Of a DNA stretch of 64,000 bases, positions 23,825 to 29,528 are shown in pieces. A program made the position numbers and the translations under genes. Below the pieces are notes generated by a model that made no database searches, had not been told where the DNA came from, and saw only the letters and a program-made list of their open reading frames with translations. This stretch comes from Telmatospirillum sp. (lineage in GTDB: Bacteria; Pseudomonadota; Alphaproteobacteria; CACIAM-22H2). Location of the stretch: assembly GCA_020248985.1 (NCBI GenBank), contig JADCGL010000022.1:186001-250000 (forward strand). The letters run 5' to 3'. Position 1 is the stretch's first letter; each line of letters opens with the position of its first letter.

Positions 23825-24382
23825 TCAGGCGACTGCGCGAACCTCGACGATTTCGGGGATGTAGTGGCGCAGCATGTTTTCGATGCCCATTTTGAGCGTC
23901 GCCGTCGAAGACGGGCAGCCCGAGCACGAACCCTGCATGGTGAGATAGACCACGCCGTCTTCGTATTTGTGGAACAGAATGTCGCCGCCGTCCTGCGCCA
24001 CGGCCGGGCGCACGCGCGTGTCGAGCAGTTCGATGATCTGCTGCACAAGCTCGCCGTCCGCGCCTTCGGCCGCCCCGTGCGCCGTTTCCCCGCCCGCCGC
24101 CAGCGTGGCCGCACCGGACGTGAAATGCTCCATGATCGCACCCAGCAAAGCGGGCTTCATCAGGTGCCAGTCTTTGTCGTCGGTCTTGGTCACGGTCACG
24201 AAGTCCGAGCCCAGGAACACGCCCGTGACACCCTCGACGCCGAACAATTTGGCGGCGAGCGGCGAGCGGGCGGCGGCATCGTCGGCACTGGCGAAATCGG
24301 CGGAGCCCGCGGCCAGCACTTCGCGGCCGGGCAGGAATTTCAGCGTCGCCGGATTCGGCGTGGTTTCCGTCTGGATGAACAT
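23825..24382 (-). CDS. NfuA/NifU-like iron-sulfur scaffold protein
   Basis: 185 residues. N-terminal Nfu_N domain (MFIQTETTPNPATLKFLPG, a hallmark start) and a C-terminal NifU domain with the cluster-binding pair in GSCSGCPSS. It carries 4Fe-4S clusters to apo-proteins in the cytoplasm. GGAG 8 bp before the ATG supports the start at 24382 over the in-frame 24400. In many alphaproteobacteria this gene follows murJ-trpS-usp directly; here the usp gene is nearly 4 kb away, separated by a cyclase gene and a low-GC module, which suggests an insertion. Confidence 0.92.
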   Translation of the reverse strand: MFIQTETTPNPATLKFLPGREVLAAGSADFASADDAAARSPLAAKLFGVEGVTGVFLGSDFVTVTKTDDKDWHLMKPALLGAIMEHFTSGAATLAAGGETAHGAAEGADGELVQQIIELLDTRVRPAVAQDGGDILFHKYEDGVVYLTMQGSCSGCPSSTATLKMGIENMLRHYIPEIVEVRAVA

Positions 24383-24402
24383 TCGATTTACTCCGGTCAT
24401 GC

Positions 24403-24522: not shown

Positions 24523-25818
24523 TTGAGCACAACGTTGCCGAATCGGATCAATGCGCGCCCGGCCGGCGTGCACGGCCATCGCCGCTATGTGCGCCCGGTC
24601 GGCCAGCGGCCCAAACACGCCACGCGCGATTCGGTGCTGTTGTGGCTGCGCGGGCCCGCCCACGCCGTCGGCAGTCCGCTTAAACTGATCGACGGTCTGT
24701 GCTGGCGGCTGGTCGCCGCGGGCGTGCCCATCGACAGGTCCGTCGTTTCGGTGTCGCTGCTGCATCCGCAATTCGCGGGCTACGGCATTCGCTGGCGGCG
24801 CGACAGCGGCGAGGCGGAAGAGTCGCTGATCGAGCACAGCGTGCGCGACAGCGACGCCTACCGCAACAGCCCGTTCCCGGCCGTGGTCGAGCGCGGCGAG
24901 ACAGTGCGCCTCAAGATCGGCCCGCTTCAGAACAGCGATCCCTATCCGGTGATCGCCGAATTGCGCGTGCAGGGCTTCACCGACTACCTGACGCAGCCTT
25001 TGTCGCTCTATGGTTTTCTGCCGTCCACGTTCGAACGGCCGTTCCAGGCGGTCAATTGGGCGACCAAACGCGACGGCGGTTTCGAAGATGCGGACGTGGC
25101 ATACCTCGCCCATGTGCTGGCCGAGCTCGCCGCCCCGCTCACGCTCGTGACCGAACGGCGGATTGCGCGCGATCTCTTGTCGATCTATCTCGGCCGCTCG
25201 ACAGGCCCGCGCGTGCTGGCGGGCGAGATCAAGCGCGGGGCCGGCGAGCCTTTGCGCGCCGCGATCCTGGCGACCGACATGCGCGGCTTCACGACCTTGA
25301 GCGACCGACTGCCGGCCGAACGCATGGTCGAAATCGTCAATGGCTGGTTCGAGCGCCAAGTGGGGGCGGTGCACGCGCATGGCGGCGAGGTGATCAAATT
25401 CATCGGCGACGGCATGCTCGCGATCTTCCCGATCGCCGATATCGAACTTTCCCGCATGGCCGCACGCGACGCACTCGGTGCGGCCCGCGACGCGATCAAG
25501 GCGGCACACGCGATGAACGCCGACCCGGCTTTTGCCGATGCACTCCCCTTGCGCGCCGTGGCCGCCCTCCACACGGGCGAGATTTTCCTCGGCAATATCG
25601 GCGCCCCCGACCGGCTCGATTTCACGGCGATCGGCCCGTCGGTCAATGTGGTTTCGCGCCTCGAGCAACTCGTCAAGTCGCTCGACCGCGAATTGATCGT
25701 GTCGGCCGCCTTCGCCGCGATCAGCTCGGAAAAACTCGCCTCGCTCGGCAGCCACCAATTGAAGGGTGTCGCCGAACCGGTCGAGGTCTTCACCTGCCCG
25801 ACGATGGCGCCCGCCTGA
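24523..25818 (+). CDS. Class III adenylate/guanylate cyclase
   Basis: 431 residues. The N-terminal 230 or so residues form a helical region seen in other rhizobial-type cyclases, without membrane segments. The C-terminal cyclase homology domain starts at AAILATDMRGFTTLSDRL (metal Asp). It continues with GGEVIKFIGDGMLAIFP (adenine-specifying Lys, second metal Asp), LDFTAIGPSVNVVSRLEQL (Asn and Arg of the transition state) and LKGVAEPVEVF. All key residues are present, so it should make cAMP. The start is a TTG with GAAAGAG (24511-24517) upstream; no better start exists nearby. It ends exactly where an 11-bp tandem repeat begins. Confidence 0.85.
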   Translation: MSTTLPNRINARPAGVHGHRRYVRPVGQRPKHATRDSVLLWLRGPAHAVGSPLKLIDGLCWRLVAAGVPIDRSVVSVSLLHPQFAGYGIRWRRDSGEAEESLIEHSVRDSDAYRNSPFPAVVERGETVRLKIGPLQNSDPYPVIAELRVQGFTDYLTQPLSLYGFLPSTFERPFQAVNWATKRDGGFEDADVAYLAHVLAELAAPLTLVTERRIARDLLSIYLGRSTGPRVLAGEIKRGAGEPLRAAILATDMRGFTTLSDRLPAERMVEIVNGWFERQVGAVHAHGGEVIKFIGDGMLAIFPIADIELSRMAARDALGAARDAIKAAHAMNADPAFADALPLRAVAALHTGEIFLGNIGAPDRLDFTAIGPSVNVVSRLEQLVKSLDRELIVSAAFAAISSEKLASLGSHQLKGVAEPVEVFTCPTMAPA

Positions 25819-25894
25819 CGCGACATTTGCGCGACCTCTGCGCAACATCCGTGCGACATCGACGCAACACGCACGCGACATAGACGCGACATTT
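25818..25894. repeat. Seven tandem 11-bp repeats
   Basis: From the last base of the cyclase stop codon the sequence reads as seven head-to-tail 11-mers with consensus ACGCGACATNN. The units start at 25818, 25829, 25840, 25851, 25862, 25873 and 25884. The first and last units are identical (ACGCGACATTT). The others keep GCRACMT with one or two changes. There is no spacer and no length variation. The period is close to one DNA turn, so any bound protein would sit on one face of the helix. Iteron-like regulator site, minisatellite or decayed coding repeat are all possible. Confidence 0.8.
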
Positions 25895-26177
25895 TTTAGA
25901 TCAAGCCATTGAAATAGCTAGATTCTACGCGCAGTTTCGCCGAAATTTCGGCGCTACGGCACGAAGCATCTTTATTCACTCTTCAAACAGCGCCTGCCTG
26001 GACGGGCATTGAGGTTAGCATAGTATGTTCGTTTTTTGTTTTCAATAAGAATTTGCAGCAATTGACTCCGCAAGCTTCGTGAATTGACGATTGACAACCG
26101 ACGGCAATCGACGACACTCCTTTAAGTAGCGAAGCGCCAAGCAGCGGCAAAGCGGTCGGCAACTGCAAGGGCCGAAA
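25895..26177. other. Non-coding stretch with a 16-bp palindrome
   Basis: No credible gene between the repeat array and the HTH gene. GC content drops visibly. A perfect 16-bp palindrome CGCCGAAATTTCGGCG lies at 25938-25953; its AT-rich centre and lack of loop fit a protein-binding site better than a terminator. Three TTGAC(R/T) hexamers (26062, 26084, 26091) could be -35 elements for the gene at 26178, but no convincing -10 is spaced correctly. Confidence 0.5.
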
Positions 26178-26744
26178 ATGAAGAACTTCGAATTCACGCT
26201 CCACTTCAAGCTGCCGCCGGAGCGCCCTGATCCAAAATCATGGCTCGATGCGCTCTTCGAAGCGGGGTGCGACGACGCGACGGTCGGTGTCGGGCGTTTG
26301 GGCCAAATCGCGCTCGACTTCGCGCGCGACGCGACCACGGCGCGCAAGGCCGTAGCGTCGGCCATCGCCGACGTCGAACGCGCGATCCCGAAGGGTGCCT
26401 TCATTGCGGCCGATCCGGATCTTGTCGGCCTTGCCGACATTGCGGCCCTCGTCGGCATGACGCGGCAAAATCTGCAGAAATTTGCGACCAACGCCATCAA
26501 GGCGCCGGCAGTCGCGTTTCCGCCGCCGGTTGTGCTCGGCAACGACGCCAAATGGCGTCTCGCCGAGATCGAGCCCTGGCTGCAGCAGGTGAAACCCGGC
26601 GCCTTGACGCCGGAAAAAATCGGGTGTCGATCGCGACGGCCGAACTCAACATTAAGAACCAAGCGCAAAGGCTTCAGCGCGCGGTCGGTTGATTTGCGGC
26701 GCACACGTGCGCCGACCGTCATGCGCCGCCACGCATCGGATTGA
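26178..26744 (+). CDS. HTH DNA-binding protein, copy 1, with frameshifted C terminus
   Basis: 188 residues as read. N-terminal part (FEFTLHFKLP, LFEAGCDDATVGVGRLG, IALDFARDA) plus a helix-turn-helix (DLVGLADIAALVGMTRQNLQKF, residues about 80-101, with the turn at LVGM) and a VAFPPPVVLGNDAKWRL wing-like segment match a family of small putative regulators in alphaproteobacteria and cyanobacteria whose targets are unknown to me. Compared with copy 2 (27674-28015) one base is missing near 26622-26624. Residues after about 148 are therefore out of frame, and the original end would be the TGA at 26692. AAGGG (26167-26171) provides a ribosome site. The N terminus and HTH remain intact. Confidence 0.7.
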   Translation: MKNFEFTLHFKLPPERPDPKSWLDALFEAGCDDATVGVGRLGQIALDFARDATTARKAVASAIADVERAIPKGAFIAADPDLVGLADIAALVGMTRQNLQKFATNAIKAPAVAFPPPVVLGNDAKWRLAEIEPWLQQVKPGALTPEKIGCRSRRPNSTLRTKRKGFSARSVDLRRTRAPTVMRRHASD

Positions 26745-26837
26745 GGGAATCTCGAAACGCCATCGACGGTCATGCAGTGACAGTAAAGATTGTAGCCAAA
26801 TTGTGAAGGGATCGAGCCCTTGATATTCTGGACGCGT

Positions 26838-27539
26838 ATGTCGGAGTTCGACGAGAACCGCAAGAATGCGGGTTGTTTGCGAATCGTTGTCTATTGCGTT
26901 TTAGGTACGCCGTATACGATGTCATATAGAATCACCCAAGATAGTCTGGCTTTCGCCATTGCATTTGTGATTTTGCTCGAAAGTTGGATCGCACCCGCTG
27001 CGGGACGAGCGCAGCATCGCTTCTTCGCGATCCTGCTTTTTGTCGGCGCGCTTAGTTCGATGGTTCTTGGAGTCCTGATCGACCTCTACTATTTTTCGTT
27101 TGTTCTGCCTCCCTGGGTCGATTGGAGCATCGATTGGCTGCCGCGTTTTCGTCGCGCCGCAGATTCGTATATTGCCTCGAGCTTTTCGCAACACCTCGAA
27201 GTTCTTCGCCTGAAGTATGCCGCGTGCGTCGCTATCGCCTGTGCAATTTTGGCCGTTCAGGCCGTCAGATGGCGGAGGTATCTTGAGCAAGCAGCGGAGA
27301 TCATTGCGTTTCGCGGCAAGGAAAAGCCCGTCCGCAGTTTGGCCGTTGGACACATTCTTCTAGGTCTGTTCTTTCTTGCCTTTGGAATATTCGATTTCGG
27401 TTTGGGCTTGCATTCTTGGCGAGCGAGCTTGTCGCATTGGTTCGACTTTCCAGCACCGATTGCAGTTCTAGTCGGTCTGGTGGTTGGACCGTCGATATTG
27501 GCATCGGCATGGGCACTGCTGCATCTTGAAGAGTATTGA
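26838..27539 (+). CDS. Five-helix membrane protein of unknown function
   Basis: 233 residues from the ATG at 26838; the ATG at 26919 (MSYRITQDS) is an alternative. Five hydrophobic segments are visible, for example LAFAIAFVILLESWIA, FAILLFVGALSSMVLGVLI, YAACVAIACAILAVQAV, ILLGLFFLAFGIFDFGLG and PIAVLVGLVVGPSILASA. I do not recognise the family. Base composition is well below that of the surrounding genes and codon choice is relaxed (many A/T third positions), which points to recent acquisition. It is flanked by two copies of a HTH gene, so a regulator-membrane protein pair is suggested. Confidence 0.6.
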   Translation: MSEFDENRKNAGCLRIVVYCVLGTPYTMSYRITQDSLAFAIAFVILLESWIAPAAGRAQHRFFAILLFVGALSSMVLGVLIDLYYFSFVLPPWVDWSIDWLPRFRRAADSYIASSFSQHLEVLRLKYAACVAIACAILAVQAVRWRRYLEQAAEIIAFRGKEKPVRSLAVGHILLGLFFLAFGIFDFGLGLHSWRASLSHWFDFPAPIAVLVGLVVGPSILASAWALLHLEEY

Positions 27540-27577
27540 TGTCGGGCTGCCGCGCCCAGCGCTCCCGCTCCTGAAGA

Positions 27578-28015
27578 GTGCAGGCGTTCAGGCAATGGGC
27601 GGGCGCAAACTCGCTTTGCGAGATTTTCAGCCGCATGCGGGTGGCCCGCGAATCGACCCCACCGCTGAAAACCGTTGCGTCCGCCATTGCCGACGTCAAA
27701 CGCGCGATCCCGAATGGTGCCTTCATTGCGGCCGATCCGGATCTTGCCGGCCTTGCGGATATTGCGAAACTCGCCGACATGACGCGGCAGAATCTGCAGA
27801 AATACGCGACCAATGCGATCAAAGTGTCCGTCGTCGCGTTTCCGCCGCCGGTCGTGCTCGGCAATGACCCCAAATGGCGCCTCGCTGAGGTGGAGCCCTG
27901 GCTGCAGCAGATCAACTCCGGCGCGTTGACCCCGGAAAAAATCGACGTGTCGCTCGCGACGGCCGAATTCAACATCAAACACCAGTTGCAAAGGCTTCAG
28001 CGCGCGGTCGGTTGA
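27578..28015 (+). pseudogene. HTH DNA-binding protein, copy 2, 5'-decayed
   Basis: From 27674 to 28015 the sequence aligns with copy 1 (26352-26692) with high identity by eye: GAFIAADPDLAGLADIAKLADM, TRQNLQKYATNAIK, VAFPPPVVLGNDPKWRL and the intact tail TAEFNIKHQLQRLQRAVG. Upstream the similarity fades. Remnants of the copy 1 N terminus can be followed in shifting frames back to about 27620 (ARESTPPLKTVAS against ARDATTARKAVAS, and GRKLAL against GQIAL), so the 5' half carries indels and there is no matching start codon. The ATG at 27578 is fortuitous. This copy preserves the C terminus that copy 1 has lost. Confidence 0.7.
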
Positions 28016-28290
28016 TGCGGGGCCATGTGCGACGAATTTCTATACCAACGCCTAAGCCACAGCCGGCTTCGGATTGAAAGCGCCAGCAATTTCTGTGTCG
28101 CACAGCTCGCGCATCATAACCGGATTTTGCGGCCGGTCGTGCACACGCGCGTGAAATCGAGATCGGCGCCTACCAAGGGCGAGCGGCGCAAGCTGGCGCT
28201 GCTTTGACGGCTTCGCGCGGGGCTGCGATTTCCTTTGCCGTCAGCCCTTCGGTTTGCGTCAGACAGCGCATTAAAGTTCGTCGCCGGCCC
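28016..28290. other. Gene-free stretch after HTH copy 2
   Basis: No supported gene. A 60-codon plus-strand frame (28025-28207) has no recognisable features, and short open pieces on the minus strand are interrupted by stops. It looks like eroded sequence at the right edge of the low-GC module; the conserved universal stress gene begins immediately after on the other strand. Confidence 0.5.
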
Positions 28291-28773
28291 TCACGTAATC
28301 GCGTCGATCTCGTCTTCGGCCAAGCTGCCGGGCACGATGGTCAGCGGGACGCGCAGTTTGTTGGCGTATTTGCCGGTCAATGCCGACACGAGCGGGCCCG
28401 GGCCCTTGGCCGACGTGCCCGCCCCCAGCACCAGGATCGAGATCGAGGGTTCTTCTTCGAGAAGTTTCAAAAGCTCGTCGCGCACGTCGCCTTCGCGCAC
28501 ATGCAGCATCGGCATCTGGCCCGAGAGTTCCTGCACGAGGCTCGAGAGTTCCTGCAGGCGCGCTTCGGCTTCCTGGCGGCGCTCCTCGCGCATCAGTTCG
28601 CCCACGCCCATCCATTCCACGCCCTCGGCGGGCTCGGTCACGAACAGCATCGCCACGCGCCCGCCCGAATGGAAGGCGCGGCGACACGCGAAGCGCAGCG
28701 CGATTTTGAGCTCCGGCGTCTGGTCGACGACGACCAGAAAGATGCGCTGCGTATGCGGCTGACGTGTCGGCAT
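28291..28773 (-). CDS. Universal stress protein (UspA family)
   Basis: 160-residue single-domain Usp. RIFLVVVDQTPE is the usual first strand and Asp. LVLGAGTSAKGPGPLVSALTG carries the G-x2-G-x9-G-(S/T)-like ATP loop, slightly altered. A Glu/Leu-rich amphipathic helix (REERRQEAEARLQEL) occupies the middle. A purine-rich ribosome site (GGGGGA) precedes the ATG at 28773. It lies last in the minus-strand run that starts at glnD and is 26 bp downstream of the TIGR02186 gene. Confidence 0.83.
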   Translation of the reverse strand: MPTRQPHTQRIFLVVVDQTPELKIALRFACRRAFHSGGRVAMLFVTEPAEGVEWMGVGELMREERRQEAEARLQELSSLVQELSGQMPMLHVREGDVRDELLKLLEEEPSISILVLGAGTSAKGPGPLVSALTGKYANKLRVPLTIVPGSLAEDEIDAIT

Positions 28774-28799
28774 TTGTCCCCCCGTCTCCGGCTTGCGGG

Positions 28800-29528
28800 T
28801 TACTTCCTGAAGATGGCGCCGGCGGCCCAGCCGGCGAAGACGGCAATCAGCACGGCGAGGAGGCCGTAGATCGCCGCCCAATCATGCGCGAAGTCATAGA
28901 TGTCCGCACCCACGCCGACTTTGTTCACGAACATCGGCGTGGTCTGCGCCCCGATCACCTGGCCGCCGCGCACGAGCAGCACTTCGACCGAATAGGCTCC
29001 CGTCGGCACGTTGGCCGGAAACACGATGCGCGTGCGGAACAGGCGCGGGCCCAGGAACGACACGCGGCCGATCTCCGCATCGTAGAGAGCCTGCGCTTCC
29101 TTGTTGCGCAGGAGGCCTGCGCGGAACGCGGCGACCTCGTCCGGGTTCGCGTCGGCAGGGGCTTGCAGGCGCAGATACTCGGTGCCGATCTGGTAGCGCT
29201 GGCGCAGAGCGGGCGGTACGAACTCGGCAAGCGGCTTCGAGGCCGCCACGCGATAGAAGGCGGGTGCGCCCGCAAAGCGCATCTCGTCGCGGTTGATCCA
29301 CAAGCCCGCCACGCGCGCCTTGCGCCGTACGCTGGTTTCGCTGTCGGGCCCGCGCACGATGACGACCACGTCGCCCTCGCCTTCGGTCGCCCCGAACAGC
29401 AACAGCTCGGTGCCGGCAAAACCCGTGGTGATCGCGATCAGATGGCTCGAAAGATCGGCCACCAACGGCTGCGCCTTGGCCGTCGGCATAAAGGCCAGCA
29501 GCGCCAGCAATGCGAGAAACGCGCGCAT
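28800..29528 (-). CDS. TIGR02186 family membrane-anchored protein
   Basis: 242 residues. N-terminal signal (MRAFLALLALLAFMPTAKA), a periplasmic beta-rich domain (LIAITTGFAGTELLLFGA, VVVIVRGP, then GLWINRDEMRFAGAPAFY), and one C-terminal membrane helix (YGLLAVLIAVFAGWAAGAIF). This family habitually sits beside TSUP permeases, as here. Its function is not established; a role with sulfur-compound export is inference from linkage. Its ATG overlaps the TAA of the upstream permease by one base (29528). Confidence 0.82.
   Translation of the reverse strand: MRAFLALLALLAFMPTAKAQPLVADLSSHLIAITTGFAGTELLLFGATEGEGDVVVIVRGPDSETSVRRKARVAGLWINRDEMRFAGAPAFYRVAASKPLAEFVPPALRQRYQIGTEYLRLQAPADANPDEVAAFRAGLLRNKEAQALYDAEIGRVSFLGPRLFRTRIVFPANVPTGAYSVEVLLVRGGQVIGAQTTPMFVNKVGVGADIYDFAHDWAAIYGLLAVLIAVFAGWAAGAIFRK

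Follow-up and report, generated by a model that had tools for sequence, protein, structure and literature searches.

The window, a 64,000-nt stretch of contig JADCGL010000022.1 from Telmatospirillum sp., carries two direct copies of one helix-turn-helix (HTH) gene with an open reading frame (ORF) for a predicted membrane protein between them. The block lies between a cyclase gene and the universal stress protein gene usp, and its parts were compared with the same junction in other genomes of the genus, including those designated G002 and G003. The features are as follows.

23825-24400, minus strand: nfuA (Pfam Nfu_N, 2e-31), one gene beyond the cyclase gene
24523-25818, plus strand: class III adenylate/guanylate cyclase gene bordering the cargo site on the left (Pfam PF00211, 6.3e-8)
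25819-26050, no strand: intergenic left flank, common to G002 and G003 whatever the cargo (blastn, alignment)
26134-26180, plus strand: PDC-M06A relic comprising the final 10 or so codons plus the ATGA that overlaps copy 1 (alignment with the intact G002 M06A)
26178-26744, plus strand: copy 1, PDC-M06B (PADLOC PDLC04388, 1.9e-48; alignment)
26820-27539, plus strand: ORFan for a predicted membrane protein of 239 aa, with a TTG start (ORF, hydropathy, GC)
27644-28023, plus strand: copy 2, PDC-M06B without codons 1-48 (PADLOC PDLC04388, 5.3e-28, profile positions 46-164; alignment)
28024-28290, no strand: about 270 bp without assignment between copy 2 and usp, missing from the M06-usp junction of G002 (sequence comparison)
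28291-28776, minus strand: usp, which encodes a universal stress protein and borders the cargo site on the right (Pfam PF00582, 1.8e-10)

Two incomplete copies of a regulator gene

The duplication described in an earlier note on this DNA is real. The copies align in a 300-nt block (26322-26621 with 27644-27943, 84% identity) and a 77-nt block (26624-26700 with 27947-28023, 86%), spaced by 1322 and 1323 nt, respectively; two blocks at these spacings are far above chance, and both copies match one profile. At 84-86% over about 378 nt (26322-26700 versus 27644-28023), they are not the near-identical sequences that the note had reported.

The one-base difference in spacing marks a deletion near 26622 in copy 1, where the note had placed it. 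Residues 1-148 of copy 1 are in frame up to the resulting frameshift, and the reading frame then runs past the original stop (about 26692) to a shifted one at 26744. What is lost is a tail of 23 native residues rather than the 40 given earlier; this tail includes N158, a nearly invariant residue, and the C-terminal helix. Copy 2 has indeed lost its 5′ part, but codons 1-48 are missing rather than decayed in place, and the remaining frame is open between about codon 49 and its stop at 28015. This copy lacks the invariant AGCDDA region.

The ORF between the copies, which could also start at an ATG at 26838 or 26919, encodes about five hydrophobic segments and has a GC content of 52% (65% for the window), in agreement with the lower-GC membrane gene described earlier. 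It has no family at useful significance and no relatives in 96 related genomes, 385 genomes of the class, plasmids or viral contigs, and no further copies of the stretch 26700-27643 were found in the genome.

A PDC-M06 relic at a variable cargo site

PADLOC assigned both copies to PDC-M06B; the phage-defence candidate PDC-M06 consists of two genes, of which M06B is the second. Pfam and NCBIfam yielded nothing useful for the copies. Copy 1 scores 162.7 bits against the PDC-M06B profile, versus 170.1 for an intact M06B. At the same junction G002, a draft metagenome assembly of the same genus, holds an intact unit, in which an 80-aa PDC-M06A (5e-36) precedes a 171-aa PDC-M06B (1e-50) and the M06A stop overlaps the M06B start by ATGA. 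Of the HTH-membrane gene pair that the earlier note had proposed to look for in relatives, G002 thus has the full-length, single-copy HTH gene, but its unit contains no membrane gene.

M06A is present in 75 of 80 M06B loci from many phyla, nearly always directly upstream. In approximately eight M06A genes elsewhere, an in-frame stop or a frameshift interrupts the coding sequence beside an M06B gene, which could represent toxin inactivation or sequencing error; among the interrupted genes followed by M06B, in-frame stops occur in L048, L054, L089 and L104, and frame changes in L047, L061, L077 and L120.

Comparison of the window with G002 revealed that the post-cyclase flank is kept, that nearly all of M06A is missing, and that the blastn match resumes at 26134. 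A profile search found no M06A elsewhere in the window's genome, and the remainder of 25001-29000, including the sequence before copy 2, has no credible second relic. An 11-bit M06A-like stretch near 28900 was judged to reflect biased composition. Because the upstream M06A that characterizes the family is represented in the window by a C-terminal stub only, we file the locus as a PDC-M06 relic and not as a working member. It resembles PDC-M06 in that both copies are M06B by profile and the two-gene unit occupies the same locus in G002, and differs in the missing M06A, the incompleteness of both M06B copies and the duplication of the regulator around an ORFan. A literature search found no paper naming PDC-M06 and no functional data on it.

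The genes flanking the block, the cyclase gene and usp, are found in all 11 genomes of the genus. The block had been placed between usp and nfuA; usp does adjoin it, whereas nfuA does not, since the cyclase gene intervenes. That it looks inserted is borne out by the cargo-free junctions sought in relatives: in 7 of the 11 genomes the cyclase gene and usp abut or overlap within 10 bp, with 4, 9, -4 or -8 bp between their stop codons. Where cargo is present, it is M06 in G002 and an RmrA-like system in G003, the latter comprising an HTH-ImmA/IrrE protein matching RmrA (3.2e-54) and a 201-aa partner without family (L037, 5677-7361); the contigs of G006 end at the junction. The cyclase/usp junction is thus a variable cargo site within the genus, at which empty, intact M06, RmrA-like and decayed M06 states together document turnover of defence cargo.

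On a second contig of G002, a different cargo precedes usp, so that two contig ends at the junction carry unlike cargo beside this gene (L036, 5620-5940; L007, 10538-10691). Identity between the two usp fragments is 92%, and the two ends may reflect a strain mixture, partial duplication or more than one cargo.

The cyclase (24523-25818) matches PADLOC PycC profiles (1.6e-22), yet its gene occurs in 11 of 11 genomes, with cargo or none. Following it, 25819-25930 is occupied by a degenerate array of short GCGACAT-like repeats with a period of about 11; about 12 other sites in the genome have similar stretches. A motif around TTCACTTTTCAAACAGCG at 25966-26010, common to G002 and G003, recurs at few other genome sites.

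Predicted folds of M06A and M06B

The M06A model (pLDDT 83) displays an alpha-beta-beta-beta-alpha order, which is also that of HicA toxins (PMC10865869). When the model was realigned to solved structures, HicA chains ranked on top (5yrz_B, Z 5.0; 6g26_F, 4.6; 1whz, 4.6), followed by further ones (6hpb_A, Z 4.0; another, 3.8), aligned over nearly the whole length; unrelated aminotransferase domains reach Z 4.3, and HicA scores of 4-5 are therefore weak. Foldseek returned no significant PDB match for M06A, and none of 39 M06A members matches a HicA Pfam family. The invariant residues of M06A are His6, Trp23, His31, Gly34, Cys38, Cys51, Thr58, Pro59, Ala66 and Cys76; one invariant His sits at the turn from strand 1 to strand 2. 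The modelled resemblance to HicA is weak and suggestive only.

The M06B model (pLDDT 94) combines a beta-alpha-beta-beta-alpha-beta ferredoxin-like domain with a winged HTH. HicB is absent among its structural matches, and no HicB Pfam match occurs among 43 M06B members. A sequence search of solved structures produced no useful match for M06A and, for M06B, a weak match to AlpA alone.

The predicted unit shares with type II HicAB toxin-antitoxin systems a small upstream protein modelled with the HicA strand and helix order, a conserved His and an adjacent DNA-binding partner, and in Escherichia phage Cyrano a homologous pair is annotated as HicA toxin and putative antitoxin HicB. It differs from them in that M06A has conserved Cys residues and lacks a HicA Pfam match, and in that modelled M06B, judged by strand and helix order, is ferredoxin-like plus winged HTH, in contrast to the partial RNase H fold of HicB. 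In its C-terminal part, M06B bears a weak resemblance to the AlpA and phage excisionase-regulator families; unlike these excisionase-type winged HTH regulators, M06B has an additional N-terminal ferredoxin-like domain and stands in an operon with M06A. These comparisons offer a testable hypothesis on the function of the uncharacterised candidate PDC-M06, namely that a HicA-like toxin is paired with a regulator other than HicB.

Probable decay of the unit and alternative readings

The block is very probably a decayed PDC-M06 unit, a candidate toxin-antitoxin-like phage-defence system at a variable cargo site, from which M06A was deleted and in which M06B is eroding. In the intact unit, we infer, the small M06A would act as a HicA-like RNA-targeting toxin, while the overlapping M06B would neutralise it and repress the operon. 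The synonymous divergence between the copies (dS 0.36) is that of the cyclase genes between species (0.35), which suggests that the duplication dates from roughly the species split; in the 3′ part common to the sequences, dS to G002 is 0.42 for copy 1 and 0.60 for copy 2. On this reconstruction, M06B would have been duplicated at about the time when the lineage separated from the G002 species, the unrelated membrane ORF would have come to lie between the copies, and M06A would have been deleted save for its last codons. As M06A is gone from the window, decay of its partner is expected: left with no toxin to hold back, both copies would be degrading into presumably functionless remnants, copy 2 having lost its N-terminal domain and copy 1 bearing a recent frameshift.

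The frameshift in copy 1 rests on one assembly, and since both this assembly and that of G002 are drafts, it could be an assembly error. Read in the original frame, the codons of copy 1 beyond the frameshift still show conservation (over 18 codons, dN/dS against G002 is 0.13), which indicates that the deletion either is recent or arose in sequencing or assembly. A recent mutation would look alike, and the adjacent A run has the same length in copy 1 as in copy 2, which speaks against an error. We regard a full-length copy 1 as rather unlikely; even then, M06A would still have been lost.

Copy 1, and perhaps copy 2, might alternatively still work on its own, as a regulator of the site or as an anti-addiction antitoxin that neutralises the M06A of incoming elements. 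Copy 1 retains both its ferredoxin-like domain and its HTH, having lost the C-terminal helix alone; its profile score (above) and its mostly synonymous divergence from G002 before the frameshift (dN/dS 0.13) fit such a role, and solitary hicB genes have been reported from defence islands (PMC10865869). This constraint, however, may be older than the loss of M06A, and the copies have lost N158 and the C-terminal helix in one case and the AGCDDA region in the other, so that we consider continued function unlikely. The third-position lean of copy-specific changes (9 of 16 in copy 1, 16 of 31 in copy 2 and 18 of 31 in G002) is consistent with past constraint. Less probable still is a broader version, in which the antitoxin of PDC-M06, built of a ferredoxin-like domain and an AlpA-type winged HTH and distinct from HicB, would partner a HicA-like toxin that contains cysteines; the window would then record the loss of this system, with a solitary anti-addiction regulator kept beside a new membrane gene.

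That the membrane ORF and the flanking copies form one new functional module, a membrane effector with duplicated regulators, appears very improbable: the ORF is open over 239 codons with several hydrophobic segments and lies on the same strand between the copies, but it lacks both relatives (in the genomes, plasmids and viral contigs searched) and a family, and the intact M06 unit of G002 has no such gene. The repair by gene conversion suggested in the earlier note, whereby complementary damaged copies would now and then restore an intact gene, is scarcely credible, for although direct repeats with non-overlapping lesions would permit it, the copies have diverged as much as the species, no conversion tract was detected (identity sites between copies are unclustered, longest run 5, permutation 0.31), and the operon partner M06A is missing. 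The locus reflects ordinary decay of a defence locus and not a gene-repair device.

Separately, the 5′ part of copy 1 (26178-26336) has a dS to G002 of 1.2, compared with 0.42 for its 3′ part, and is possibly mosaic.
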